Virus record (IMG/VR): IMGVR_UViG_3300042298_000647
Span: 1-28,504 of that record
From: a virus
Length of the DNA: 28,504 nt
Strand: one strand, 5' to 3'
Shown here: positions 5,583 to 28,504 of the stretch, piece by piece
Layout: every line of letters begins with the position of its first letter
Position numbering within the stretch: position 1 is the first letter of the stretch
Translations under genes and position numbers: made by a program
Notes under the pieces: generated by a model
What the model saw: only the letters and a program-made list of their open reading frames with translations
What the model was told of the DNA's origin: nothing
Database searches by the model: none

Positions 5583-8500
5583 ATGGCCACCAAGTACTTG
5601 TCCGACGATGAGGTGTTCGGAACCTCGACCTCATACCTTCCCGAGGATGAGGTGTTCGGGACACCCTCTGCTCGCAAGGCCGGCGGTGGCCGCGGGCCCA
5701 TCAACCCGCCTCCTGCGCCCGCGACAGACTACTCTGACATGGCCACGGCCATGCAGGGGGCGCCTACCGGCGGGCCGCTGATTCGCAGCGTGCTGGACCA
5801 GCCCGGCCCCGTGCCGAAGACGCCGGGTTACGACCCGATGCTGAATCAGGGCTATGTGGCCGAAGTCCGCCGGGACATCATCGGCAAGGCCGCGCCTGAA
5901 GACCGCATGGGCCTGCTGACCACGCTGGCCGAGAACCGCACCGATGTGCTGGGCCGTGCCGCTCGCCAGATCCTGGCTGAGGCGCAGGCAGAAAACAAGC
6001 GCATCAGCCTGGACCAGGAGGGGCGAGTTCAAAGATTGCTGGATGCTCCGCGTGGACCCGGCAATGTCCCGCCGCCCAGGCTTGGTGCCGGCGCAGCTTC
6101 GCCCGTCTCAATTCCTGATGTCACTCCTGGCTTTGGCGACATCATGGATGGCCGCTCGGCCAAGCAGATCGCCGAGCGGCGCATGCTGGCGCAGGGCGTG
6201 CGCGTGGCCGATGAGGGCCTGCGCGTAGACGAGATCAGTGGCGTTACCAGCCAAATGGCGGAAGCCGAAGGGCGCCGCAAGTTTGCTGAAGAGAATCCGC
6301 TGCTGGGTTCTATTGCTGCCGGCTCCGCGGGTTTGATCAGCGGCGTGATCAACATTCCCTCGGTCGCTGCAGACGCCTTCAACAAGACCGCCATCAACCC
6401 AGTGCTTCGCGCATTGGGAATGCAGGATCTTCCGCCCGTGTCTACGGCATTTGGCACCGAGTACCTGGCCAAGTCTGCCAGCGACTTCATGCCAAAGGTT
6501 GGCAAGCAAGAGATGGACGTCGCCATCAAGCGCGACGAGTTCGCGCCTTGGCTGATGTCGAAGCTCGCCGCCAACTCGCCGCAGATCGCGCAGTCTCTGC
6601 TGGCCGCGTTCGCTCCTCCGCTGCGCGCGGTGCTGCTGCCAGGCATGGCAGGTACGGCGTCTGGCCAGAGCTTTGCCCAAGGAGACGACTCTCGCGTGGC
6701 GCTCGCCAAGGGTGCGGTGGAGCATGTATCCGAGAAGCTGCCGCTTGGCGTGTTTGACAAGGTCGGAGACGTGCTCAAGGGGATGTCTCCTGCCAAGGCC
6801 AACACGGTGTTGGCGGTGGCTGGCCAGCGCGCTCTGCAGGCCGGCGGTGCAATCACTGCCAACGGGCTGACCAACGCGATTGAGGAAGTGGCCGCACAGT
6901 TCGGCGGCAACGTGCTCGACAAGTACTTCCAAGGCAAGGACATTGAGCTGACCAAGGGCCTGGCCGAAGCCGGAGTTGTTGGCGGCGTGACGGGCAAGCT
7001 GATGAGCGCGCCCCAGGTTGCCGCCGCGGCGACCGGCTACTACGAGCCTGAGCGCCAGATTGCGCGGGAGATCGACTCGGCTGGGCGTGCGTTTGAGAAC
7101 CTCGGGCCAGAGGCATCTCGAGCTATCAGCATTGACATGCTGCGCACGGAGGCCGGAACCTCCAACCTGATCTCCCCCGCCGCAACCGTCAAGAACTTCA
7201 CCCCGCCCGACTCGCCGACCAAGCAGGCTGGCCTGGTGGACATCGAGGTGCCGCTGCCGAACGCGGCTCCTATCCTGCCCGAGATCAACCCGTCGACCGA
7301 GGAGCAGTTCGGTCTGGATAAGCTGCGCATGGGAGGCGCGAATGTCGGCACAACAGGCTTACCTGGAGGACTGGCTGGAGCAGGGGGTGAGGCAGGGGGC
7401 GGTCTCATTGACGGAAGCATGGGAGCTGCAGGACCTGGCGATGCAGGTGCCCCCGGGCTCGGAGGCAGAACTGCCCCAATCCCTGGAGTCAATGATCGAC
7501 AGGCTGTTCCTCCTGGAGGTGCGCCCGGCCAACAGCCTGCCGGCGTAGCCGTAGGCGGTGAGCCGCTGACTTGGACTGGCCGCGCAAAGACTGGCTACGC
7601 GAACGAGCAGGACGCACAGCAGGCGATGGCCACTGCCAGCACGGTCATCGACACCAGGCAGACTCACGACTGGCGCGTCGAGCCCATAGGCAATGGGCGC
7701 TTTCAAATTGTCGGATACCAAAAGGAGACCAACCTTGGCACGCAAACCCCTCAAGCCCAGCAAGGCCAAACGCAAGGAGCAACACCAGCAGGCCAAATGG
7801 CAGGTGCCGCACAAGGCGGCGCAGGTGGCATCCCAGCAGCAACCGGCACGCCGGTTGAACTGTCTGATACTGAACGTGCCGGACTGAAGCTCGCGCCGAC
7901 GGCGCCTCTGCGAGAGCTGAGCTCGCTCAACAAGCAGCTCGATCAGCAGATCGGTGTCACGTTTTCGCCGGTCAAGTCGACCGACCTGAACGACTCGCAG
8001 CGCCTGGCCAGCGCGGTGGCGCGCCTGATGGGCAAGACCCTGACGGTAGTCCACCAGGAGACCGGTGCAGGCGCGCTGCCCAACGGCATGATCAACACCG
8101 TCGGCGGCAAGCACCTGTTCGTCGCCGACGATGCGGACGATGCGCCCTTGGCCATCACAGTGCATGAGGCCTACCACGGCCTGCCGGAGGCTCAGCGCAA
8201 GAGCCTGAATGCTGCGCTGCTGGATCTGTTCCGCCAGGACCGCAAGGACAAGTTCCTCGACGAGTTCAGCTACACGCCGGACAAGTTCGAGGAGGAAGCC
8301 CCGGCCATGATGGTGCAGGCCATCAGCAAGCGCGAGGACTTCTGGCAAGAGCTGCGCACGAAGATGGGCAACAAGGAGTTCGGCGAGGTGGCCAAGACCA
8401 TCATCGCCAAGCTCGGCGACATCATCACCGGCGCCAAGAAGCAGTACGGCGAAGACTTCGTCAACAAGTACATCTCCGACGTCGAGAAGGCTCGCAACCT

Positions 8501-11500
8501 GCTGACGACCGCTTACGCCGACGCGATGAAGGCGCAGGGCCTGCAGCCCGATGTGAAGATTGCTGGCGAGGCGATGGCGTCGAACCGCACGACCACGCCA
8601 GAGACCGACGCCCAAGCGAGCCGGTTCGGCTTTGATCAGCCTGGCCCAGAGGCCGGCGAGTACGCGATTGCAGTCAGCGGTTTGGGGGATGTGATCGGGC
8701 GTGTGGTGAGCTCACCTGATGAGCCACTGCGCATGGAGATTAGCCCCGAGTACATGGGGCGCCGCTTCGGATCGAAGGTGGCAGAGGGTGACGCTGCGAT
8801 CAAGGCCGCGATCAAATGGGCAAGTGACGGCATCCAGCAGGGCCGCAAGAAGCTGGCGGCCATGGCGATGGCTGAAGAGCGCGGGCTGCCCACGCCTGGC
8901 GCTGGGTCGGCTCGCTTGCCTATGGCCTCCGAGCGTTCGCGCATCGGCATGAACTTCAAGGACGTCGTCAAGCGCACGCCTGAGCTGCAGGAGGGCATGG
9001 CAAAGCTACAGGCTGGAGAGATTACCAAGGCCGACTACGACAAGCTGGTCAACGAGTACAAGCCAGTCGAGCCGTACCAAAGCGTGCCGGAGCCAGTGAC
9101 CACCGAGGCAGCGAAGTTTGCCCTAGCCAATGGCAAAGGCCAGTCCGAAGAGAAGGCCGCCAAGTTCGGATTGCCGAGCCAAGAGTTCAAGGCCGGCGAG
9201 GTGGCGCAGTTGCGCCTGGACATCCCGTCGTACTCCGAGCACGGCGCCTGGGTGGTCAGCGTCCACCGTCCCGAAGGGCGTTCGTTCAGCGCCGGCAAGG
9301 TCATTGGCTACGAGCCGGTCGCGTCGGTGACGAATGCCGAGTTCGGCATGCTCGAGAAGTCTGCAGCGAAGATCGCGGCCGGCTCAGCCAAGGGCACGAT
9401 CGCCACGATCATGGGCGACTGGAAGCCCACGACTGCGGCCGAGGCAAAGCTCAAGGCCGACCAGGCGCTGAAGTCCAAGGACTGGGTGCAGGTCGGCATG
9501 GACCCCGAGCGGCACAGCTACTTCTACGACCGCTCCAGCATGGAGCCAGTGACGGCCGCCGACGAGGTCATCCAGATCGGTCCCCTGGTGCTGGCCAAGA
9601 ACCCGACCTACGGCAAGAAGTCGGAGTTCATGTTCAGCAACCGGGTGGTCCCGAAGGCCATCGAGTACCAGCCCAAGCGCGACAACTTCGCTGCGCCGAA
9701 GACCTCAGAGTTCCTGCCGAGCGAGCTGGTCGAGCGCGCCCGCGGGTACATCACCCAGTTCAAGGCCGAGGCTGCACCCGTTCAGATCTCTGGCGCCGAT
9801 CGCGTGAAGGCCGAGGGCCTGCTGCGCCCGCGCCTGCAGGCTGCGCAGGAGGCCAAGCTCGACTATGACCAAAAGATCCTGGACATCGGTGAGCGCACCG
9901 GCGCGCTGGGTCAGATGCTGGCGCCGATCAAGGGCATCAAGCGCGCCGCCGAGAAGCTGGCCGTTGAAGAGAAGTTCAACGTCGACAACATCAAGGACCT
10001 GCTGCGCTCGACGATCGTGGTCGACAGCTACGCTGATGCGCCGGCCGTGGTCGACGAGATCCGCAAAGAGTTCGAGGTCGTGCGCGTCAAGAATCGCACC
10101 GACATCGAGATGGCGGGCAACGACGTCGACAACAAGGGATTCCTGTCGTCAGGCTACGGCGACGTGCTGATCAATGTCCGCACGCCCAACGGCACGATAG
10201 CCGAGATCCAGATCAACGTGCCCGAGATGCTCGCCGCCAAGGGCGAGGAAGGGCACGAGCTGTACGAGATCGAGCGCGATCAGCCGGAAGGGTCTGACAT
10301 CCGCCGGGCGGTTGTCGAGGCCCAGTCCGAGTACTACCGCGAGGCCGCGGCCGCCGCTGCGCGCAGGAAGTACGCCTCGTCGGAAGGGGCGCCGGAGCGG
10401 GGGAGCGCGTCGCGCTCGAGCAGCTCGCCGCTCGCGTCGTCGAGCTTGAACACACGGCCGTCTGGGAACTTGACCCAGTCGTCGCCGGAGAACGAGGCAA
10501 CGAACTTGCAGCCGGGCGGGAAGGAAGAGGGGACTTTCATAGGATCTCCTGACGAGTCGAGTATATCACAACCCTTATACACAAAGCCGCCTCGGCGGGG
10601 CGCCGAAAGGATCGGGAGCTTTGATGTTCGCACCATGAAGGACGGCTCGATTGTCGTCTACGGTGATTCGCAAAACATCAGATCGCAGATCCCAGAAGAC
10701 GTCAAGGGTCGCGTCACCAAGGACGGCTACCTCTTTACCAACGCAGCCGCGCCTCGTGTAAAGGCCGCGCTCGAGGGGCGCAAGACCGCCTACAGCCGCG
10801 GTGGTCAGGTCACCGAGAAGCTGCCCATGAAAGACGGCAAGTACCTGGGCGCGCCCGAGAAGTACAACACCCCTGGAAAGATCGTCGCGCTGCGCAAGCA
10901 ACTGCGCATGCTCACGCTGGAGGGGGAGCGCGGCCGCTACTGGTACGAGAACAGCAGCCTGGCGATCTTGCGCATGACTGGCGGCAACGTGCAGGAGGCG
11001 CGCAAGTTCGTGGCCCTGCTGGCCATCTACAGCCCGCAGGCGCGTGTCGACAGCAACTCGACGTTTGCTCTGCGAGCCTGGGCGCAGTACAAGGCTGGCC
11101 AGCCAATCAGCGTGAAGACCGGAGTGCAGGACAAGAAGGCGACCCAGGCCATGGCCGACGTCGACGCCTTCTGGTCTGGCGAGAAGACAGGCAACTTCTT
11201 CTTCAATCTGTTGCGCGAGATCGACACCAGCACTGCCGGCAAGCAGGGCGCGACGATCGACATGTGGATGATGCGTGCGGCCGAGTACGCCAACGACGCG
11301 CCCACTGCCACGCAGTACGCCTTCATGGAAAACGAGACCAACCGTATTGCGCAGGAAATGGGCTGGGAGCCGCAGCAAGTGCAGGCCGCCATCTGGGTCG
11401 CGATGAAGGCCCGCATGGAGAACAAGGGTGTCAAGCAGAGGACCGAGGCCACCAGCGAGAAGAAGGGCTGGATCAAGTTCGAGCGCGATGCGAAGGGCAA

Positions 11501-14156
11501 GAAGGTCCGCGTGATCATCGACGCACAGAAGCACCGCGACAACTGGCTCAAGCATGCGATGGAGCATGTGCCAACGAAGGCAGACACCGAGCAGGCCAAG
11601 TTCGACTTCGCCGATGGAGTCGGGCGCCACATCGGCCAGCTTTCGTTCGAGGCTCGGCCAGGCCGCAGCACGGGCGTTCTGGATGGGATCCACACCGCAC
11701 CGTATGCCCAGCAGGTGGAGTTCCAGCAGGCCGTGCAACGTGCGTTCTACGACGAGAACGGCACCGACATGCTGGCTGCACAGCTCGGCCTGCTGACGGA
11801 GCCCAGCGACATCATGCGCCCTGGCGTGTGGCAGGGCGAGGTGTCACCCAGCACGCAGAAGCGCGTGGCAATGGCGCCGGCTGGTGGCGATGCTGGCAAG
11901 ACCAACGTCGACCCGGCGCAGGCCGAACTGCTCAACGTCTATGCGTCTGTGGCTGGCCTGGTGGCCAGGCAGGAAGGGGTGGGCTGGCACCGGCCGTTCT
12001 ACGCCGGCACGAAGGGGCAGTCCAACGGCCTAGACATCGACATCGGCCGAGCGCTGAACCCAACCGAGACGAAGGACCTCGAGGCGGCGATCGGCAAGTG
12101 GATGGATGAGAAGAAACACGCCAACTGGCAGAACCAGTTTGCGCTGATCAGCTCGCCCACTGGCATAAGAGTTGTGAATTTCGGTATCATCACAAACGCA
12201 GTACTCCAGTCCGACATCGTGAAGGTCGCGGAAGGTGTGCTGCCAGATGGATCTGTGCGCGTGTTCGCCTCAAGTGGCGACATGCCAACTAACGACTGGG
12301 AGGCAAACCCCAATGGGCAAACTTACGTACAAAGGATTGGTGCCGCGGGACGATCCGATGTTCTCGACTGGGCCAGAAGTGTTCTCGCGCCTCGGGTCCA
12401 GCGAGTCTTCGAGGACTTCGCCGAAAAGTACCAGTGGGGAGACCCCGGCCGAATCCAGTTCAGCAACCGAGGCGGATCCGATGCAGCCGGCGGTGGACGC
12501 GATCGAGGAGTGGGGCCGCAAGACGTTCAAGCGGTAACCCCTTCCTACGGCACCCCTCGAGAGGGCGCCGCTTCCGCGGCCGCCTACCACTACAGCACCC
12601 AGCCCCGCACGACCCTAGACAGCGTGATGTATGGCACCGGCCTGCGCGGTGCCGAGATGGCGCGCCTGCAGGGCGCAGACCCGCGCCTGAAGCAGCGCAT
12701 CTACTTCTACATCGATCGCGGCACTGGCATCAATCCTGAGGCCGGCGTGGGCGGCCAGGCTCACCGCGTTAATCTGCAAAACCTGTACGACGTCGACGAG
12801 GACGCGCTGCGTCTGCGCCGCGACAACGAGGCCTTCAACGACTTCGAGTCTGCGGTCATCGACGCCGGCTTCGACGGCTACATGGTGCGCGACGCCGGGC
12901 CGTCAGGCAACGCGGTGCTGCTGGGTCGGCACGCCGTACCCGTCGAGCAGCTCGGCGCTCGCAGTCGCATGGCAGGCGAGCCTGTCGCGCCGGCCCGCGA
13001 GCGGGTGCTGAGTGACGCCGAGAAGATCTCCGCCAACAAGATGCTGCCGGCCGGGCAGGTGTCCGGCAAGCGCTGGGCGGAGCTCATCTCTCGCAGCATG
13101 CCGGAGGTCTACGAGCGCCTGGCTGGCAGCCCGGTGTGGCAGTCCGACAAGGTCATGTACCGCGGCGATCTGGCTCGCGAGCTTCGCGCTCAGCCGATGT
13201 TCAGCAACCGCCAACTGCCGAAGGTGTCGCCGCAAAGCGCGCTGAACAGAGAGATCGAGGGCGCCTCGATCAACCTGCAGCGCTACATCCGCGAGGCGCA
13301 GCAGGATGGCCAGTTGCCGAAGCTCACGATCGGCCGCCTGCCCCATGTGCTCAACATGCTGGGCGCACGCACGCAGGATTTCGACATCGCCACCAGCATT
13401 GTCAAGAAGGTGTTTGTCAGGACCAAAGCAGAAAAAGGACACGCGGACGAGCTGCCCGACATCACGCCCAAGCAGCTCATCGAGGGCATCTACCGCCCGG
13501 CCATGGTGCTGAAGTCGAAGGACGGCAACCCTCGCGAGTTCGAGCTGGTGCTGCCGATCACCAGCGACAAGGGCGCGCTGATCGTCCCGATCAAGGTGTC
13601 GGTGGACAAGACAGACCCGACGGGCGCGGTGATGTCGATCTACGCCAAGGGCGTGTCGATCTCGGGCGGCAAGACCAACGAGCAGGTGCTGATGAAGCGC
13701 ATCAACGACGGCAACCTGCTGTACCTGGACCCGGGCCTGGCCAAACAGGCGATGACGGGGCGCAAGGCTGGAGATCCTAAGGCTGATGTCAAGCTCAATG
13801 GCAACTTCGTGTCTTGGCCTGGGGTGTGGCCCAAGCTCGAGAAGATGATCGCCGACCGCAAGGTCAAGACCGATGTCAACCTGATGGGCTGGATCGGCGA
13901 CAACTACAAGCCGAGCTCGTCGCCGCAGGGCTGGGAGGATGCGCCCGCATTCAGCCAGCGCGCCCGCGCTGAGGACAAGGAAGTGGCCAGCCTGTTCCGC
14001 GATCTGCAAGATGCCCGCGGCCTTGGGCGCGTGCGTGCGCTCGAGCGGGTTGACGCGCACCCGATGGCTGAGACAATCCGCCGCATCGACCAAGAGTTCA
14101 TGGACATCCTGGAGCGGCTCGACGACGCCGGCCTGGTGAAGATCAACTGCAAGTGA
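5583..14156 (+). CDS. Giant polyvalent virion protein (metallopeptidase, RelA/SpoT-like, ART-like and BECR-nuclease-like regions)
   Basis: A 2857-aa multidomain protein. Residues 1-30 carry YLxxDEVFGT twice, 12 residues apart. Residues 237-485 are hydrophobic and Gly-rich with a zipper-like GLAEAGVVGGVTGKL. A gluzincin-like site H861-E862-A-Y-H865 is followed near 901-906 by candidate third-ligand Glu residues. Residues 1157-1345 form an unassigned domain containing ERHSYFYDR. Residues 1405-1565 resemble a RelA/SpoT synthetase (D1472, Y1525, E1541). Residues 1675-1960 are an unassigned helical domain. Residues 2318-2460 look ADP-ribosyltransferase-like (YHYS, IYFYIDRG), weakly. Residues 2580-2700 resemble MuF-C/BECR nucleases (LPHVLNMLG, KGHADELPD, MSIYAKG). 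This mix fits phage polyvalent proteins ejected with DNA. Linkers at 7342-7887 and 12313-12537 show low third-position GC (about 41-58%, against about 90% elsewhere) where other frames are coding-like, and 10335-10560 is Ser-rich. Confidence 0.88.
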   Translation: MATKYLSDDEVFGTSTSYLPEDEVFGTPSARKAGGGRGPINPPPAPATDYSDMATAMQGAPTGGPLIRSVLDQPGPVPKTPGYDPMLNQGYVAEVRRDIIGKAAPEDRMGLLTTLAENRTDVLGRAARQILAEAQAENKRISLDQEGRVQRLLDAPRGPGNVPPPRLGAGAASPVSIPDVTPGFGDIMDGRSAKQIAERRMLAQGVRVADEGLRVDEISGVTSQMAEAEGRRKFAEENPLLGSIAAGSAGLISGVINIPSVAADAFNKTAINPVLRALGMQDLPPVSTAFGTEYLAKSASDFMPKVGKQEMDVAIKRDEFAPWLMSKLAANSPQIAQSLLAAFAPPLRAVLLPGMAGTASGQSFAQGDDSRVALAKGAVEHVSEKLPLGVFDKVGDVLKGMSPAKANTVLAVAGQRALQAGGAITANGLTNAIEEVAAQFGGNVLDKYFQGKDIELTKGLAEAGVVGGVTGKLMSAPQVAAAATGYYEPERQIAREIDSAGRAFENLGPEASRAISIDMLRTEAGTSNLISPAATVKNFTPPDSPTKQAGLVDIEVPLPNAAPILPEINPSTEEQFGLDKLRMGGANVGTTGLPGGLAGAGGEAGGGLIDGSMGAAGPGDAGAPGLGGRTAPIPGVNDRQAVPPGGAPGQQPAGVAVGGEPLTWTGRAKTGYANEQDAQQAMATASTVIDTRQTHDWRVEPIGNGRFQIVGYQKETNLGTQTPQAQQGQTQGATPAGQMAGAAQGGAGGIPAATGTPVELSDTERAGLKLAPTAPLRELSSLNKQLDQQIGVTFSPVKSTDLNDSQRLASAVARLMGKTLTVVHQETGAGALPNGMINTVGGKHLFVADDADDAPLAITVHEAYHGLPEAQRKSLNAALLDLFRQDRKDKFLDEFSYTPDKFEEEAPAMMVQAISKREDFWQELRTKMGNKEFGEVAKTIIAKLGDIITGAKKQYGEDFVNKYISDVEKARNLLTTAYADAMKAQGLQPDVKIAGEAMASNRTTTPETDAQASRFGFDQPGPEAGEYAIAVSGLGDVIGRVVSSPDEPLRMEISPEYMGRRFGSKVAEGDAAIKAAIKWASDGIQQGRKKLAAMAMAEERGLPTPGAGSARLPMASERSRIGMNFKDVVKRTPELQEGMAKLQAGEITKADYDKLVNEYKPVEPYQSVPEPVTTEAAKFALANGKGQSEEKAAKFGLPSQEFKAGEVAQLRLDIPSYSEHGAWVVSVHRPEGRSFSAGKVIGYEPVASVTNAEFGMLEKSAAKIAAGSAKGTIATIMGDWKPTTAAEAKLKADQALKSKDWVQVGMDPERHSYFYDRSSMEPVTAADEVIQIGPLVLAKNPTYGKKSEFMFSNRVVPKAIEYQPKRDNFAAPKTSEFLPSELVERARGYITQFKAEAAPVQISGADRVKAEGLLRPRLQAAQEAKLDYDQKILDIGERTGALGQMLAPIKGIKRAAEKLAVEEKFNVDNIKDLLRSTIVVDSYADAPAVVDEIRKEFEVVRVKNRTDIEMAGNDVDNKGFLSSGYGDVLINVRTPNGTIAEIQINVPEMLAAKGEEGHELYEIERDQPEGSDIRRAVVEAQSEYYREAAAAAARRKYASSEGAPERGSASRSSSSPLASSSLNTRPSGNLTQSSPENEATNLQPGGKEEGTFIGSPDESSISQPLYTKPPRRGAERIGSFDVRTMKDGSIVVYGDSQNIRSQIPEDVKGRVTKDGYLFTNAAAPRVKAALEGRKTAYSRGGQVTEKLPMKDGKYLGAPEKYNTPGKIVALRKQLRMLTLEGERGRYWYENSSLAILRMTGGNVQEARKFVALLAIYSPQARVDSNSTFALRAWAQYKAGQPISVKTGVQDKKATQAMADVDAFWSGEKTGNFFFNLLREIDTSTAGKQGATIDMWMMRAAEYANDAPTATQYAFMENETNRIAQEMGWEPQQVQAAIWVAMKARMENKGVKQRTEATSEKKGWIKFERDAKGKKVRVIIDAQKHRDNWLKHAMEHVPTKADTEQAKFDFADGVGRHIGQLSFEARPGRSTGVLDGIHTAPYAQQVEFQQAVQRAFYDENGTDMLAAQLGLLTEPSDIMRPGVWQGEVSPSTQKRVAMAPAGGDAGKTNVDPAQAELLNVYASVAGLVARQEGVGWHRPFYAGTKGQSNGLDIDIGRALNPTETKDLEAAIGKWMDEKKHANWQNQFALISSPTGIRVVNFGIITNAVLQSDIVKVAEGVLPDGSVRVFASSGDMPTNDWEANPNGQTYVQRIGAAGRSDVLDWARSVLAPRVQRVFEDFAEKYQWGDPGRIQFSNRGGSDAAGGGRDRGVGPQDVQAVTPSYGTPREGAASAAAYHYSTQPRTTLDSVMYGTGLRGAEMARLQGADPRLKQRIYFYIDRGTGINPEAGVGGQAHRVNLQNLYDVDEDALRLRRDNEAFNDFESAVIDAGFDGYMVRDAGPSGNAVLLGRHAVPVEQLGARSRMAGEPVAPARERVLSDAEKISANKMLPAGQVSGKRWAELISRSMPEVYERLAGSPVWQSDKVMYRGDLARELRAQPMFSNRQLPKVSPQSALNREIEGASINLQRYIREAQQDGQLPKLTIGRLPHVLNMLGARTQDFDIATSIVKKVFVRTKAEKGHADELPDITPKQLIEGIYRPAMVLKSKDGNPREFELVLPITSDKGALIVPIKVSVDKTDPTGAVMSIYAKGVSISGGKTNEQVLMKRINDGNLLYLDPGLAKQAMTGRKAGDPKADVKLNGNFVSWPGVWPKLEKMIADRKVKTDVNLMGWIGDNYKPSSSPQGWEDAPAFSQRARAEDKEVASLFRDLQDARGLGRVRALERVDAHPMAETIRRIDQEFMDILERLDDAGLVKINCK
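7342..7548 (+). CDS. Overprinted small gene 1 inside the giant gene (acidic 68-aa protein)
   Basis: A 68-aa reading frame in +1 phase relative to the giant gene. ATG at 7342 is preceded by GGGAGG (7331-7336) with a 5-nt gap, a near-ideal ribosome binding site. The product is acidic and helical (AYLEDWLEQGVRQGAVSL, then MIDRLFLLEVRP), with normal composition and two Trp. By hand count its third positions are about 85% GC (58 of 68), while the giant frame over the same bases is only 41% (28 of 69) and encodes Gly/Ala/Pro low complexity. So the codon choice here follows the nested frame, not the giant frame. Function is unknown and there is no signal peptide. The alternative is an old frameshifted domain remnant that happens to keep a start and binding site. 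Confidence 0.6.
   Translation: MSAQQAYLEDWLEQGVRQGAVSLTEAWELQDLAMQVPPGSEAELPQSLESMIDRLFLLEVRPANSLPA
7735..7887 (+). CDS. Overprinted small gene 2 inside the giant gene (basic 50-aa protein, TTG start)
   Basis: A second frame in the same +1 phase, beginning with TTG at 7735, 7 nt after AGGAG in AAAGGAGA (7721-7728), and ending at TGA 7885-7887. The product is strongly basic at its N-terminus (ARKPLKPSKAKRKEQ) and Gln-rich. Third positions are about 80% GC (39 of 49) against 42% (21 of 50) for the giant frame, which here reads as Gln/Gly/Ala/Pro low complexity. The upstream ATG at 7693 in the same frame lacks a binding site, so TTG is preferred. It lies 186 bp after overprinted gene 1; the two products are oppositely charged. 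Function is unknown. The non-ATG start and short length make it less sure than gene 1. Confidence 0.45.
   Translation: MARKPLKPSKAKRKEQHQQAKWQVPHKAAQVASQQQPARRLNCLILNVPD
10334..10540 (-). CDS. Antisense small gene nested in the giant gene, early-gene type
   Basis: A 68-aa protein on the strand opposite the giant gene. ATG (complement of 10538-10540) is preceded by CAGGAGA with about 5 nt spacing. The product looks like a real small protein with a central WVKFPDGRVFKLDD motif and an Ala-rich tail. That motif resembles LIELPDGTVFNFDD at the end of the early protein at 28021-28329. The leaders also match: GACTCGTCAGGAGA here against GACACGTCAGGAGA there. A -10 TATACT with TGTGA directly upstream is present, as in the early promoters. 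Third positions are about 90% GC, while the sense frame reads as Ser-rich filler with codons such as GGG, CGG and TTG. It seems to be an early-type cassette inserted or copied into the late gene. Function unknown. Confidence 0.72.
   Translation of the reverse strand: MKVPSSFPPGCKFVASFSGDDWVKFPDGRVFKLDDASGELLERDALPRSGAPSDEAYFLRAAAAAASR
10560..10588 (-). promoter_or_regulatory. Candidate early-type promoter for the antisense nested gene
   Basis: On the - strand: extended -10 TGA-TATACT (hexamer at 10565-10560) with TGTGA immediately upstream (10570-10566). This is the same placement as in the four early promoters, but only one half of the TCACA-NN-TGTGA operator is kept. The -35 region (around 10582-10588) is poor. 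A start about 7 nt downstream of the -10 would leave a leader of roughly 13-15 nt with the ribosome binding site. Confidence 0.5.
12313..12537 (+). CDS. Possible overprinted small gene 3 inside the giant gene
   Basis: A 74-aa frame in +1 phase to the giant gene. ATG at 12313 follows GGGAGG with a 9-nt gap, and the stop is TAA at 12535-12537. The product has a plausible N-terminus (MGKLTYKGLVPRDDPMFSTG), a Ser/Thr/Glu-rich middle and a C-terminal helix (AVDAIEEWGRKTFKR). Third positions are about 76% GC, against 58% for the giant frame over the same stretch. In the first half the giant frame also looks like genuine protein (DVLDWARSVLAPRVQRVF), so both frames may be used. An in-frame ATG at 12235 has no clear binding site. 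Function is unknown. Confidence 0.38.
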   Translation: MGKLTYKGLVPRDDPMFSTGPEVFSRLGSSESSRTSPKSTSGETPAESSSATEADPMQPAVDAIEEWGRKTFKR

Positions 14157-18709: not shown

Positions 18710-18981
18710 GTTTTCTCCAAAAAATCCTTACGGGGGTTGTGCCCAGCATTGATGATGCCCGCTGGGTGATGGGCGTTTTTGGTCTCCAACTCGATCAACT
18801 TATCGAGGTAGTGCCTGGCCTTGCGCAAGTCCTCCACGCCGGCCTTGTCGCGCCAGCGACTGACGTACTTCACGACGTTGCCCTCGAAGTACCCGAGGCC
18901 GTTGGCCGCGATGTAGTCCCAGGGCTGTATGTTTTGGTGCTGGTAGTGGTCGCCGCCCACTTGGGTGTCGTTTGCGTTCAC
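18706..18981 (-). CDS. DUF3310 family protein (nucleotide-kinase-like, SaV type)
   Basis: A 91-aa protein from a GTG start. QVGGDHYQ near the N-terminus, followed by PWDYI and then FEGNVVKYVSRWRDKAG with DLRKARHYLDKLI, is the signature of DUF3310. This family is widespread in phages, sometimes annotated as a nucleotide kinase, with no proven reaction. GTG at 18981 is preferred over the upstream ATG at 19032: it makes a GTGA overlap with the HNH stop codon and has AGGAAGGG upstream, whereas the longer form adds residues translated out of phase with the HNH 3' end. C-terminal residues beyond about 70 are variable. Confidence 0.85.
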   Translation of the reverse strand: MNANDTQVGGDHYQHQNIQPWDYIAANGLGYFEGNVVKYVSRWRDKAGVEDLRKARHYLDKLIELETKNAHHPAGIINAGHNPRKDFLEKT

Positions 18982-19619
18982 TTGTTTCCCTTCCTCATGT
19001 TCTCCCTCGCCGGTATTACGCGAAGGTTCCAAGGCACATGCAGACCGCTTACGTTTGACCCGTTCAGCGGAACAATGTGGTCAACGTGATGCTTAACGCC
19101 AGTTCGATTTGTCATCCACCTTGCTTCTTTGTACCTGAGCTTCATCGCCTCAATGTGTTCAGGAGCCAGCCAATGCGGCGTCCTGAGAATCTTTCCAGAG
19201 TGGCGCTTTTTCTGAGCCGCTGTCTTGACTGCGCGCACTTTGTCAAAGTTTTCCTTTATGTATCGCCTTGAGCTTTCTTGGCACTTGCTTTTGTTTCTTT
19301 CGTAATAGCGCTTTGATGTCTGCAATCTTTTTTCTTGATTGCTTAGAAGGTACTTCTCTCGCGCTTTTTTGAACGCCGCCTTACCTTCTTCTGTTTTTCG
19401 GTACTTTTCCCGAGCCTCAACGCGATGAGGCGCTATTGCCCTGCTCTTGTCGTACTCGCGTATGCGATCGATGTTTGCTGCGCGATGATTTTTGACGTCT
19501 GATTTTGTGCAGGGCTTGCACTTGTTTAGATGTCCATCTGCCATCATCTTGTGCTTGTAAAAATCATTGAGAGGTCTTACGCACAAGCACTTAAAGCATG
19601 TTTTTTCTGAGGTGTTCAT
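18978..19619 (-). CDS. Free-standing HNH homing-type endonuclease with N-terminal zinc finger
   Basis: A 213-aa protein. The N-terminus has a C8-x2-C11 and C34-x2-C37 zinc-binding motif. The middle (about 50-150) is a Lys/Arg/Tyr-rich helical DNA-binding region with repeated KYR, KYL and RYY elements. The C-terminus is an HNH nuclease core with D180-H181 (HHVDHIVPL), N198 (PWNLRV) and N207. The gene is clearly richer in A/T than its neighbours, with many T-runs on the + strand, a sign of recent transfer. It sits between the Cys-rich protein gene and DUF3310 and is joined to the latter by GTGA. Such genes usually act as selfish homing elements that cut alleles lacking the insertion; no intron is visible around it. 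Confidence 0.88.
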   Translation of the reverse strand: MNTSEKTCFKCLCVRPLNDFYKHKMMADGHLNKCKPCTKSDVKNHRAANIDRIREYDKSRAIAPHRVEAREKYRKTEEGKAAFKKAREKYLLSNQEKRLQTSKRYYERNKSKCQESSRRYIKENFDKVRAVKTAAQKKRHSGKILRTPHWLAPEHIEAMKLRYKEARWMTNRTGVKHHVDHIVPLNGSNVSGLHVPWNLRVIPARENMRKGNK

Positions 19620-19626
19620 GCGCCTC

Positions 19627-19824
19627 TCACTTAAAAGGTATGGCGTCCCACCGCCATTCGTCGCATCCGCTGGCCACGATGTCGGGCGGCGGCGCTGCGT
19701 CGAACTTCTTGCAGTAGTTGCTCATGTAGTGCTCGCAGCTTTGGCAGTTGATCCTGATCGACTGCAGCCTCTTCAGCTCGCGGCCGTGAAGCTCGAGGCG
19801 GATGTTCAGTTCGGTCTTGGTCAT
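19627..19824 (-). CDS. Small Cys-rich protein, probable zinc binder
   Basis: A 65-aa protein. The start at 19824 is chosen from the ATGA overlap with the helicase stop; a longer in-frame extension upstream is only shadow of the helicase. It has an N-terminal helix (TELNIRLELHGRELKRLQ), then four cysteines in NCQSCEHY, SNYCKK and SGCDEW, spaced to bind one metal ion. Similar tiny Cys4 proteins accompany phage replication genes, but no role is known to me. The 7-bp gap to the HNH gene suggests that gene was inserted just downstream of it. Confidence 0.8.
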   Translation of the reverse strand: MTKTELNIRLELHGRELKRLQSIRINCQSCEHYMSNYCKKFDAAPPPDIVASGCDEWRWDAIPFK

Positions 19825-21437
19825 GCTGGTTGGTCCCACTGGTGGGACACGATGGTCGGGTACTGCCCGGCCCGGTTGACGATCACGGCCGCGGGCCTGC
19901 GCAGGATCTGGTCGTCGTACTCCAGCCACTCGAGGGCTTCCTCGGTGTCGTGGGGCACGGCGTCGATCTTGGCGCGCATGGCCCACCAGGCCTCGGCCTT
20001 CTTGCGTGCGTAGCCGTCGTGGCTGAGGCACACCCACTCAGAGGCCACGCGCTGAAAGCCGTCGTAGTACTCCACGCGCAGGCTCTCGGTGCCGCCTTCC
20101 TTGTGGTGCAGGCGATAGCGCACGTCGGTGACAGGCACCATCTCCATCATGGTCTTGGCCTGGCTGCTGAGGATGGCCGCGCTCGAGGCCTGGTCGCCGT
20201 GCTTGATGCGCTCAGGCTCCGGGAACTTGAAGTTGCAGTCGACGCACTGCGTCGCGGCCGCCAGGTTCTTGCTGCCGCAGTTGGGGCACAGCTTGCTGGG
20301 CGCCTCGCCCTTGCGCTTGGTGCTGGGCATGCGTCCCTTGACCTCGTCGACCGGGCCCATCTCGATCGTGGTGTCGGTGAAGTCCGCCCACAGGCAGTCG
20401 GTCTTCCCGTCGGCGATCCGCATCCCGCGGCCGGCGATCTGGACGTACAGCACCGGGCTCTTGGTGGCGCGCAGCAGCGCGATGAAGTCCACCTCCGGGA
20501 CGTCGAAGCCTGTGGTCAGCACGGCCACGTTCACCAGGCAGCGAATCCTGCCCCCGCGGAAGGCCGCAATCAGGGCTGCACGCTCTTGTTTCGGGGTCTC
20601 CGAACTCACCACCTCAGCCGCCACTCCGCGGCGCTGTAGCGCGTCCCTGACGTGCTCGGCGTGGGCGATCGTCACGGCAAACACCAGCCACCGCTTGCGG
20701 GCGCGGGCGAGCTCGACGATCTCCTTGCAGGTGGCCTCCACGAGGCCGGGCCTGTCGGTGACCTTGGCCAGCTCGCTGACGACGTAGTCATCGCCCGACA
20801 TCCGCACGTCCCGTGCGTCCACCCTGGCCACGGTCGGGGCTGGCACCAGGGGAGACAGGAACTTCAAGCCCAGCAGTTCCTTCATCGTCACCCTGGTGGC
20901 GACGTTGGTGAACAGCGGCTCTTCTCCGGCCGTGGCCCACACGCCGTTGCCGCGGAATGGGGTTCCTGTCCAGCCGATCACGCGGGTGTGCGGGTTGTAC
21001 TTGGTCAGGTCAGCCAGGAATGTGCGCCACATCCCAGTCTGTTTTGGGTTGATCAGGTGACACTCGTCGGCCAGCACGATGTCGATGCGGCCGAGGCGGT
21101 GCGCCTGCTTGTAGATGCTGCCGATCGTGGCGTAGGTGAGCTGGTGACCCATCTGCTTCTTGCCGATGGCCGCCGAGTACAGGCCCACGTCCGCGGTTGG
21201 CCAGATCTTCAGCAACTTCTCGATGTTCTGCTCGAGCAGCTCCTTCTGGTGGACCAGCACCAGCACCCTGGTGCCCGGGTGTTCGGCGTCAGCGCGCTGC
21301 GCCAGGGCCGCGATCATCAGGCTTTTGCCGGCGCCGACGCAGGCCTCGACGATGGGGTTGCCGCCCTCGTGCCGGTTGAACCACGCCCAGAGCTCGTCCA
21401 GTGCGCGGGCTTGGTAGGGGCGAAGAGAGTAAGTCAT
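19821..21437 (-). CDS. SF2 DEAD/DEAH-box-type helicase with zinc ribbon
   Basis: A 538-aa ATP-dependent helicase. The N-terminal Q-like motif is LRPYQARALDEL. Walker A is V34-GAGKS39, Walker B is D124-E-C-H127, motif III is T157-G-T-P160, and motif VI is QIAGRGMR in the second RecA lobe. A zinc ribbon follows (CPNCGSKNL, then CVDCNF). The C-terminus is a mixed domain without clear assignment. ATG at 21437 is chosen because it overlaps the stop of the tiny upstream gene (ATGA); a TTG six codons upstream is possible but lacks a binding site. It is likely the replicative or recombination helicase of the phage, working with the nuclease, Sak4 and DUF669 proteins in the same operon. I see no primase or polymerase in the window. 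Confidence 0.93.
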   Translation of the reverse strand: MTYSLRPYQARALDELWAWFNRHEGGNPIVEACVGAGKSLMIAALAQRADAEHPGTRVLVLVHQKELLEQNIEKLLKIWPTADVGLYSAAIGKKQMGHQLTYATIGSIYKQAHRLGRIDIVLADECHLINPKQTGMWRTFLADLTKYNPHTRVIGWTGTPFRGNGVWATAGEEPLFTNVATRVTMKELLGLKFLSPLVPAPTVARVDARDVRMSGDDYVVSELAKVTDRPGLVEATCKEIVELARARKRWLVFAVTIAHAEHVRDALQRRGVAAEVVSSETPKQERAALIAAFRGGRIRCLVNVAVLTTGFDVPEVDFIALLRATKSPVLYVQIAGRGMRIADGKTDCLWADFTDTTIEMGPVDEVKGRMPSTKRKGEAPSKLCPNCGSKNLAAATQCVDCNFKFPEPERIKHGDQASSAAILSSQAKTMMEMVPVTDVRYRLHHKEGGTESLRVEYYDGFQRVASEWVCLSHDGYARKKAEAWWAMRAKIDAVPHDTEEALEWLEYDDQILRRPAAVIVNRAGQYPTIVSHQWDQPA

Positions 21438-24407: not shown

Positions 24408-24434
24408 AAAAGAATGGGCAATGTGATATTGCCC
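24408..24434 (-). terminator. Hairpin with T-tract between early genes (partial terminator or attenuator)
   Basis: A perfect 7-bp stem GGGCAAT (24416-24422) and ATTGCCC (24428-24434) with loop GTGAT. On the - strand it is followed by ATTCTTTT. It lies in the 55-bp gap between the 127-aa gene and Sak4. The loop contains the TCAC/GTGA element seen in the operators, so a regulatory site is an alternative reading. Confidence 0.4.
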
Positions 24435-24877: not shown

Positions 24878-24905
24878 AGTGTATCAGCATTGTGATGCTG
24901 GTCAA
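24878..24905 (-). promoter_or_regulatory. Early promoter D with operator, driving the recombination genes
   Basis: On the - strand: -35 TTGACC (24905-24900), 16-bp spacer, extended -10 TGA-TACACT (24883-24878). The 12 bp abutting the -10 on the + strand read TCAGCATTGTGA, a version of the TCACA-NN-TGTGA operator with one half changed; AGCAT-caca-ATGCT is an overlapping inverted repeat. The -35 lies in the stop region of the preceding gene. The leader to the 127-aa gene is about 45 nt and lacks the CCCGG hairpin. Confidence 0.7.
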
Positions 24906-25909: not shown

Positions 25910-25983
25910 CCCGGTGCCGCCGGGTCGGTGTCGACTGCTCCGTCGACAAGAGAGATTTCATCACAGTTGTGAAGTGTGGTCAA
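25910..25983 (-). promoter_or_regulatory. Early promoter A with operator and leader hairpin
   Basis: On the - strand: -35 TTGACC (25983-25978), 17-bp spacer, extended -10 TGA-TGAAAT (25960-25955). The operator TCACA-GT-TGTGA (25961-25972) abuts the -10. The leader then contains a GTCGAC-tgctcc-GTCGAC hairpin (25930-25947) and the shared CCCGG/CCGGG hairpin (25910-25914 with 25920-25924), just before the ribosome binding site. The promoter core overlaps the last codons and stop of the HD-domain gene. Confidence 0.75.
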
Positions 25984-26440
25984 CACCATTGTGATACTTG
26001 AGTGCAGCAGTCAACTTCTCTTTTGCGGCCTGGTAGCGGGGCTCGAGCTTGGCGCGGCGTGCGGCCGGCAGGAGGTCCATCCGCAACAGGTTGTGCTCCA
26101 GGTCGGCGAGCTTGATCACGATCGCGACAGGGCCCGTGTCGGCCACGCGGTCGATGAACGACTCGTAGTCTTCGTCGGGCTTCCTGGTGACGGCCTCGAT
26201 CAGGCTGACGGCGCGGTAGCTGACGCCGTGGATCAGCAGGCTGGGCGCCCTGATGCTGGTGTCCTCGAGCACGTCGTGCAGCACCGCGGCCATCTGGGCG
26301 TCGACGTCATCGGGCAGCTTCTTGGCCACCGCTCGCAGCACGACCAGCGGGTGCAAGAGGTACTGCCTGCCGGCGCCGTCGACCTGGCCATCGTGAGCCA
26401 CTGCCGCGATCTCGATGGCGTTTAGTAGGGCTTCGTTCAT
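25961..26440 (-). CDS. HD-domain alarmone hydrolase-like protein (SpoT/MESH1 type)
   Basis: A 159-aa stand-alone HD protein. All hallmark residues of the SpoT/MESH1 (p)ppGpp 3'-pyrophosphohydrolase family are visible: AHDGQ (15-19), H30-P31 (RQYLLHPLVV), H55-D56 with E59-D60 (AAVLHDVLEDT), VTRKPDEDY, and K110-LAD113-LEHN117. H30, H55, D56 and D113 would bind the metal and E59-D60 would catalyse. The expected reaction is removal of the 3' pyrophosphate of ppGpp, or of NADPH's 2'-phosphate as known for MESH1. It has no synthetase or regulatory domain. GGAGG precedes the start by 7 nt, and it is 1 nt from the gene upstream. Its 3' end carries promoter A. Confidence 0.87.
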   Translation of the reverse strand: MNEALLNAIEIAAVAHDGQVDGAGRQYLLHPLVVLRAVAKKLPDDVDAQMAAVLHDVLEDTSIRAPSLLIHGVSYRAVSLIEAVTRKPDEDYESFIDRVADTGPVAIVIKLADLEHNLLRMDLLPAARRAKLEPRYQAAKEKLTAALKYHNGVDHTSQL

Positions 26441-27247: not shown

Positions 27248-27300
27248 CCCGGAACTGCCGGGCCAGGTCTGCATCATATCACAGTTGTGATATTTCAGAA
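27248..27300 (-). promoter_or_regulatory. Early promoter B with 18-bp palindromic operator and leader hairpin
   Basis: On the - strand: -35 TTCTGA (27300-27295), 16-bp spacer, extended -10 TGA-TATGAT (27278-27273). A perfect 18-bp palindrome ATATCACA-GT-TGTGATAT (27276-27293) covers the spacer and part of the -10, and its core TCACAGTTGTGA is identical to that of promoter A. The leader contains the CCCGG/CCGGG hairpin (27248-27252 with 27258-27262) before the binding site of the 71-aa gene. Confidence 0.75.
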
Positions 27301-28020: not shown

Positions 28021-28329
28021 TCAGCGGACAAGGTCGTCGAAATTGAACACGGTGCCGTCAGGCAGCTCGATCAGGGCGTCGTAGGGGAAGAGGTCGTTGC
28101 ACTCGCGCTCGTCGAACAGGGCGTAGGCAAGGTTTCTAAGCGCACTCTCGCGCTTGGCTTTGCCGCGTGGCAGCGGCCACGCGACCGTGTCGAAGTCGCC
28201 GGCGGGGTAGCGGCGAATCAGCAGCGTCGGCAGCTCGGGGCTGGAAGGGCAGCCGGGCTTGTCGAAGTCGGTGCCGCCGAACGGGAAGTACAGGGCGTTG
28301 TTCTTGACGATCAATCGAACTGTGGTCAT
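28021..28329 (-). CDS. Hypothetical early protein, 102 aa, first gene after promoter C
   Basis: ATG 28329 follows CAGGAGACCAAC. The product starts MTTVRLIVKNNALYFPFGGT, has a middle RYPAGDFDTVAWPLPRGKAK, a helix with a Cys (ALFDERECNDLF), and ends LIELPDGTVFNFDDL. This last motif and the leader bases are shared with the small antisense gene nested in the giant gene (10334-10540). No function is known to me. It is the leading gene of the transcript from promoter C. Confidence 0.75.
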   Translation of the reverse strand: MTTVRLIVKNNALYFPFGGTDFDKPGCPSSPELPTLLIRRYPAGDFDTVAWPLPRGKAKRESALRNLAYALFDERECNDLFPYDALIELPDGTVFNFDDLVR

Positions 28330-28347: not shown

Positions 28348-28434
28348 CCCGGGATCCGCCGGGCCGGTGTCATCTCTGACGAAGTGATTACATCACACCT
28401 GTGAAGTCAGGTCAACAGCAATGTGATACATCAC
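28348..28434 (-). promoter_or_regulatory. Early promoter C with operator, second operator-like site and leader hairpin
   Basis: On the - strand: -35 TTGACC (28415-28410), 17-bp spacer, extended -10 TGA-TGTAAT (28392-28387). Operator TCACA-CC-TGTGA (28393-28404) abuts the -10. Upstream of the -35 a further inverted repeat GTGAT-AC-ATCAC (28423-28434) could be a second contact site. The leader contains CCCGG/CCGGG (28348-28352 with 28359-28363) shortly before the binding site of the 102-aa gene. Confidence 0.75.
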
Positions 28435-28504
28435 TCTGCTGCGTGGCGCTCGGCAATCGAGCCCCAGTCGCGGACGTAGTAGTTGCCGCGCATCCGCACG
28501 ATCG
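28431..28504 (-). CDS. 3' end of an early gene running off the window
   Basis: A - strand frame enters from the right edge and stops at TGA (complement of 28431-28433). The visible residues include MRGNYYVRDWGSIAERHAAE, with coding-type third positions. The Met could be a start of a 20-aa protein, but the two codons before it (Val, Arg) continue the same character, so a truncated longer gene is more likely. The stop overlaps the upstream operator-like repeat of promoter C. Confidence 0.55.
   Translation of the reverse strand, partial: IVRMRGNYYVRDWGSIAERHAAE

Follow-up and report, generated by a model that had tools for sequence, protein, structure and literature searches.

The locus

The window that we analysed is the whole stretch of 28,504 bases (positions 1 to 28,504) of the IMG/VR virus record IMGVR_UViG_3300042298_000647. 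Its + strand carries a giant gene, and within that gene, on the - strand, lies a short gene for a protein of 68 amino acids (aa). We propose that this antisense gene encodes the immunity protein for a toxin-like domain of the giant protein, a domain that the initial annotation of the window had missed and that explains the antisense gene. The features of the locus are:

5583-14156, + strand: gene for a giant multidomain (polyvalent-like) protein of 2857 aa, a stop-free frame that encloses the whole antisense gene
9696-10295, + strand: Tas1-like / RelA_SpoT alarmone-synthetase domain (Pfam core at about 9930-10265), identified by profile match, Pfam and invariant positions
10338-10589, + strand: Ser-rich linker in the giant protein, opposite the antisense gene and, according to the reverse codon test, passive as a reading
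10334-10540 (stop codon included), - strand: antisense gene for the 68-aa protein, the proposed immunity protein of the synthetase domain, supported by its open reading frame (ORF), homologues, protein-level selection and a confident predicted fold
10545-10550, - strand: ribosome binding site AGGAGA (a Shine-Dalgarno, or SD, sequence was present at this site in all 27 loci tested)
10560-10568, - strand: extended -10 promoter TGA-TATACT, 19 nucleotides (nt) before the antisense ATG

The initial annotation had described a 68-codon gene on the - strand with an SD sequence, the -10 hexamer TATACT and the bases TGTGA, inside an open + strand gene. The sequence bears this out, with a + frame that runs uninterrupted over 5583-14156. 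The product, read from the ATG at 10540 to the stop codon at 10334, is MKVPSSFPPGCKFVASFSGDDWVKFPDGRVFKLDDASGELLERDALPRSGAPSDEAYFLRAAAAAASR. The antisense gene starts 38 nt beyond the end of the synthetase domain, and the coordinates place the third codon positions of the two frames opposite each other; relatives have the same phase. A second assembled contig (L003) carries the same antisense gene, and its giant protein is 100% identical.

The giant protein has a Pfam match to DUF7178 and a weak, sub-threshold match to MuF_C. It fits the polyvalent class of phage proteins, as it has several domains in a mosaic combination and the flanks of its toxin domain are swapped between relatives. RelA/SpoT domains are known in polyvalent phage proteins (PMC5512222).

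The antisense gene has its own promoter

The -10 hexamer lies at 10565-10560, with TGTGA immediately upstream. Of 34 dereplicated members of the antisense family, 24 have a TAnnnT hexamer exactly 19 nt upstream of the start codon, as compared to 0.7% of 3,701 background ATGs, and 32 have one at 15-26 nt (7.1% of background ATGs). Furthermore, TGn lies directly upstream of the hexamer in 20 of the 34 members versus 0.54% of the background. The TGTGA sequence, which had been taken for half of an operator, therefore reads best as an extended -10 element (TGn). Such a promoter could be read by the host RNA polymerase at any time.

Could the antisense ORF be a by-product of a conserved, stop-poor sense linker that leaves the opposite frame open by chance? 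The phase does favour open antisense frames, and the same genes contain 433 other antisense ATG ORFs of at least 55 aa in the same phase. However, of 27 diverse loci, all have the SD sequence and 22 have both the SD sequence and the -10 hexamer at the site, and this combination is found in none of 562 other antisense ATG ORFs of at least 55 aa, in 58,103 sense codons. The fixed spacing of the promoter, the codon tests described below, and loci in which the antisense gene lies mostly or wholly outside of the sense gene (L087-L093 and L081) also argue against this explanation, which we consider extremely improbable.

Elsewhere in the window, inverted TATCACA / TGTGATA motifs are repeated upstream of - strand genes, at about 28370-28440, 27270-27300, 25940-25990, 24890-24905 and 24420-24430 (-). 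These are likely to be repressor operators. The antisense gene does not have the full palindrome.

The antisense protein is the conserved reading

To ask which strand's protein is under selection, we fixed one protein, drew its synonymous codons at random, and compared the likeness of the other-strand proteins with this expectation. With the sense protein fixed, the antisense proteins of the window and six relatives (compared on sense alignments) gave z scores of 5.4 (L009), 4.5 (L005), 5.3 (L028), 5.3 (L043), 3.6 (L045) and 1.3 (L044). In control segments elsewhere in the gene, the mean antisense z was 1.3-1.5 for L009 and L005 and 0.2-0.6 for the other four pairs, which are more diverged. 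With the antisense protein fixed, the sense proteins did not exceed the expected likeness in diverged pairs (z = 0.5, -2.2, 0.3 and -0.9). Similarly, in 17 pairs that span the two antisense subfamilies, aligned on the antisense proteins, the mean z was 4.88 for antisense and 0.86 for sense. Because the excess likeness is seen for the antisense protein and, in diverged pairs, not for the sense protein, these codon comparisons indicate that the antisense gene is the conserved reading and that the Ser-rich linker is its passive shadow.

This is the opposite of the outcome that the initial annotation had named as a refutation, in which relatives would conserve the sense segment and have a broken antisense frame.

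The same tests bear on the idea that the locus acts mainly through an antisense RNA, which would silence the giant toxin-bearing message, with the protein being secondary. In favour of this idea, conservation of the promoter is strong, and transcription from it would yield RNA complementary to the giant mRNA. But selection acts on the amino-acid sequence, and the SD sequence and start codon are retained, even in L059, where a probable TTG start lies at the same 19-nt distance from the hexamer TACAAT. A purely RNA-based role thus seems very unlikely; an additional RNA effect besides that of the protein is possible.

In L028, at 6450-6725 (+), we noticed a threefold short repeat that reads LPAKSLPAKSLPARS in the antisense protein and AGSDLAGSDLAGN in the sense protein and that has expanded without shifting either frame.

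A Tas1-like domain on the sense strand

Upstream of the linker, a segment of 200 aa matches Pfam's RelA_SpoT in 8 of 8 members. A profile of the sense domain matched Tas1 (PDB 6ox6_A) with E = 1.5e-9, or E = 1.7e-16 when the profile was built from 28 members. Tas1 is a (p)ppApp-synthetase toxin that is delivered by type VI secretion, and Tis1 is its immunity protein (PDB 6ox6). When aligned with Tas1, the 28 domain sequences are invariant at K79, K87, D101, R104, G153, Y154, E170, Q172, N174, K182 and H187. The motifs of RelA/SpoT synthetases (KDLLRxT, GYxDV and EIQxNxP) are conserved, and the DLxR and EIQ positions are invariant. Judging from these motifs, the domain probably makes toxic (p)ppApp-type nucleotides.

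Relatives of the antisense protein

Successive rounds of search in IMG/VR found relatives of the 68-aa protein down to 39% identity. In every relative that we inspected, the gene is antisense in a giant frame, which measures about 1900 to 4400 aa within the stretches fetched, and follows the same sense domain. A search of the product against phage proteins, which the initial annotation had suggested, thus yielded relatives in IMG/VR and no homologue among GenBank phages, where one search gave matches with E = 3 at best; GenBank phages also lack a near relative of the giant-gene region. A profile search of GTDB genomes for the antisense family found none, yet two loci found there by searching for the toxin domain (L131 and L132, the latter from Hydrogenophaga intermedia S1) do carry it. 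The family has no significant match in Pfam or PHROGs.

The relatives fall into two subfamilies, which have the same phase, place and promoter. At L083 and L075/L076, a different-looking antisense ORF occupies the site, and it also has an SD sequence and a -10-like hexamer.

The antisense protein is predicted to have a compact fold with high confidence (pLDDT, the predicted local distance difference test score, of 94.9). A fold search of BFVD gave weak matches at most, the best being to Gordonia phage Daredevil (A0A345MIY8, E = 0.076).

The antisense gene takes the place of Tis1

We collected 122 loci: 80 from IMG/VR and 15 from GTDB by querying with the sense domain, and 27 by querying with the second antisense subfamily. 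The antisense family is present in 73 of these loci and the Tis1 family in 42; none has both, and 7 have neither. The 27 loci from the antisense query cannot be used for frequencies, and without them (all taken as antisense carriers), 46 of 95 loci have the antisense family, 42 have Tis1, 0 have both, and 7 have neither. Some of the 122 loci are repeats of one contig or near-copies; dereplication at 85% left 41 with the antisense family, 18 with Tis1, 0 with both, and 6 with neither. The assignment to Tis1 is firm (profile against 6ox6_B, E = 1e-22), and a search with the Tis1 profile found no match in the antisense-bearing loci. In a tree of the sense domain, the loci with Tis1 and those with the antisense family form separate clades (20 and 45 rows, each with support of 100/99).

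A synthetase domain lies on the opposite strand in 73 of 73 antisense-family loci; among the loci from the second-subfamily query, this held for all 21 that were checked. Because every locus of the family has the domain opposite, and because the two move together (see below), the Tas1-like domain before the linker has in the antisense gene an old and obligate companion.

Tis1 lies downstream of the Tas1-like domain in its loci and is on the same strand in 40 of 42. Most antisense-family genes are nested, and two groups are convergent instead: in L087-L093, the antisense gene overlaps just the 3'-terminal ~49 nt of a short sense gene, and the L081 antisense gene (6904-7083, -) lies ~290 nt past the sense stop codon, convergent and without overlap. 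A convergent pair may be the ancestral layout. The two exceptions among the Tis1 loci, L137 (5487-5690, -) and L145 (5294-5524, -), are from Bacteroidota and have true Tis1-family genes that are convergent with, and opposite to, the toxin; a halfway layout is one possible reading of them.

The antisense protein might be a true partner of the domain without being an antidote. It could, for instance, regulate the giant gene, or act during assembly as a chaperone or adaptor through which the domain stays folded, silent or loadable. The same linkage and co-variation would be expected of such a partner, and the giant protein may be packaged and injected. On the other hand, the antisense family fills the exact slot that Tis1 occupies in the sister clade and is never found alongside Tis1, so we consider a role other than immunity unlikely.

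The toxin domain and the antisense gene move together

Among 18 loci (153 pairs), the toxin domain was recognisable in all 153 pairs and the antisense protein in 132, while the upstream flank was recognisable in 52 and the downstream flank in 55. For example, the downstream flanks of the window and L057 are 100% identical, while their toxin domains are 62% identical and their antisense proteins 60%. Conversely, the window and L052 share 93% identity in the toxin and 96% in the antisense protein, with a flank at 17%. In nine loci examined that have the window's downstream flank, the toxin domain and the antisense gene are both present in three and both absent in six. In L183, the flank seems to come directly after the sequence with which the putative metalloprotease segment of the window ends, and by our reading this locus appears to be an empty site. 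These comparisons indicate that swaps, gains and losses involve the toxin domain and the antisense gene as a unit.

The window and L005 have a recombination boundary near codon 20 of the antisense gene (window 10480-10700, compared with L005/L057). Near-identity extends over the promoter, the first codons and the downstream flank, and differences are found in the toxin domain and the remainder of the antisense gene.

The initial annotation had explained the antisense gene differently, as a cassette of the phage's early genes that was copied or inserted into the linker, in which case it would be a host-takeover gene with no relation to the giant protein. Part of that account stands: a linker of the giant protein does contain an antisense gene that is complete and has its own promoter, the frame is unbroken, and relatives that have another domain before the same downstream flank do not have the gene. 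Its leader does match that of the early gene at 28021-28329 at 13 of 14 bases, and both products do contain the motif PDGxVFxxDD. But the leader match is not conserved (in record G007, which has a 96%-identical homologue of the 28021 gene, CGTCAGGAGA is found only at the antisense gene), and the motif belongs to a local similarity of just 17 residues, with no full-length homology to the 28021 product, so the idea that the antisense gene is a copy of that early unit is not supported. Nor is its entry on its own supported, as it moves with the Tas1-like domain and is always opposite to it. Given that all loci with the gene also have the synthetase domain, and that the gene disappears along with the domain, an origin as an unrelated early cassette is scarcely credible.

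A proposed immunity protein

Because the antisense family occupies the slot of Tis1, excludes Tis1, moves with the toxin domain and has a compact predicted fold, immunity is the best explanation for its role. We consider it very likely that the locus is a toxin-immunity module in which the 68-aa protein would neutralise the Tas1-like domain. We do not classify the family as Tis1, and propose that it works like Tis1, which belongs to a type of antitoxin that occludes the pyrophosphate acceptor site (PMC11782079).

In the mechanism that we propose, the sense strand would supply an alarmone synthetase, built into a giant phage protein as one of its internal domains, and the opposite strand would supply the 68-aa protein from its own extended -10 promoter. 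The small protein would most likely bind and block the synthetase domain, as Tis1 and IapK do for Tas1 and Apk2, and so protect the cell, whether producing or lysogenic. With an internal toxin domain, an antidote gene on the same strand could not adjoin the domain without breaking the giant frame. Placing the gene antisense under the following linker, with third codon positions opposed, would allow both genes to stay open, and the shared stretch would ensure that toxin and antidote are inherited and swapped as one.

Several observations weigh against this interpretation. Foldseek searches of PDB gave no significant match for either antisense subfamily (short proteins are hard to match). No homology of the antisense family to Tis1 was detected (hhalign E = 0.51 and 0.07). 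The two subfamilies are linked by a moderate profile match (probability 70, E = 3.9e-5), and their predicted secondary structures differ in detail. The -35 region of the antisense promoter is weak. Finally, while the gene, its promoter signal, the selection on its protein, its linkage to the domain, the mutual exclusion with Tis1 and the co-transfer are established, we infer the enzymatic activity and toxicity of the domain (from motifs), as well as binding, neutralisation, the timing of expression and the reason for the layout.

As in the Tas1/Tis1 system, the sense domain is homologous to the catalytic domain of Tas1 and a small dedicated partner gene lies right after it. In contrast to that system, the toxin here is a domain in the interior of a giant phage protein, and the partner is antisense inside the toxin's frame, has its own promoter and has no detectable homology to Tis1. 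The MuF-Apk2 toxins of prophages are also phage-borne synthetases of the (p)ppApp type, and they come with two partners, the binding antidote IapK and the hydrolase Aph1 (PMC12226406). The window also has a hydrolase-like gene (described below), and we propose the antisense protein as the binding antidote. Whereas MuF-Apk2 has a C-terminal toxin domain with two immunity genes after the toxin gene, the partner here is antisense and nested, and the hydrolase gene is unlinked, in a block of - strand genes. Polyvalent proteins with RelA/SpoT domains are likewise giant mosaic phage proteins with that domain internal, and a text search of the paper found no antisense partner gene described (PMC5512222). 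The immunity genes of ionophoric (pore-forming) colicins resemble the antisense gene in being on the opposite strand with their own promoter (PMC9517006). The toxin chemistry is unrelated. To our knowledge, these colicin immunity genes lie beside the toxin gene rather than inside it. Among the papers that we searched, we found none with an immunity gene nested antisense within the reading frame of its toxin; most subscription journals were outside the search.

We think it likely that the antisense proteins are a new family of immunity proteins, encoded antisense inside the ORF of their own toxin, with their own promoter, as a self-contained module across widely divergent phages. If so, the two genes are an old and strongly conserved antisense-overlapping protein-coding pair, with one product acting on the other. 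Antisense-overlapping protein genes in prokaryotes are disputed, and this case is unusually strong because dozens of divergent phages conserve the promoter, SD sequence, protein sequence, phase and partner. It suggests a way in which a toxin domain within a giant mosaic protein could keep its antidote through every domain swap, and it adds a probable new family of alarmone-synthetase inhibitors. It also warns that other polyvalent or polymorphic toxins may hide antidotes on the opposite strand, where gene callers tend to drop overlapping ORFs.

Other genes in the window

One further gene of the window is probably related to the proposed module:

25961-26440, - strand: small HD-domain (p)ppApp-hydrolase-like enzyme (Aph1-like), matching PDB 7smg (E = 1e-18), Pfam HD_4 and phrog_990 (phosphohydrolase)

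This gene is consistent with the (p)ppApp chemistry of the predicted synthetase domain, and the enzyme is probably a second safeguard. Related sequence was found in 8 of the 17 antisense-bearing records searched, whereas the antisense gene is present in nearly all members of its clade. In two records, hydrolase-like sequence lies inside frames of about 5283 aa (G018:C1:5518-5928) and 4894 aa (G019:C1:55654-55974), apparently fused into the giant protein.

The window also has an Endonuclease VII-like gene at 18978-19619 (-), in a stretch of lower guanine-cytosine (GC) content (0.537 at 19001-20000), which perhaps arrived recently.
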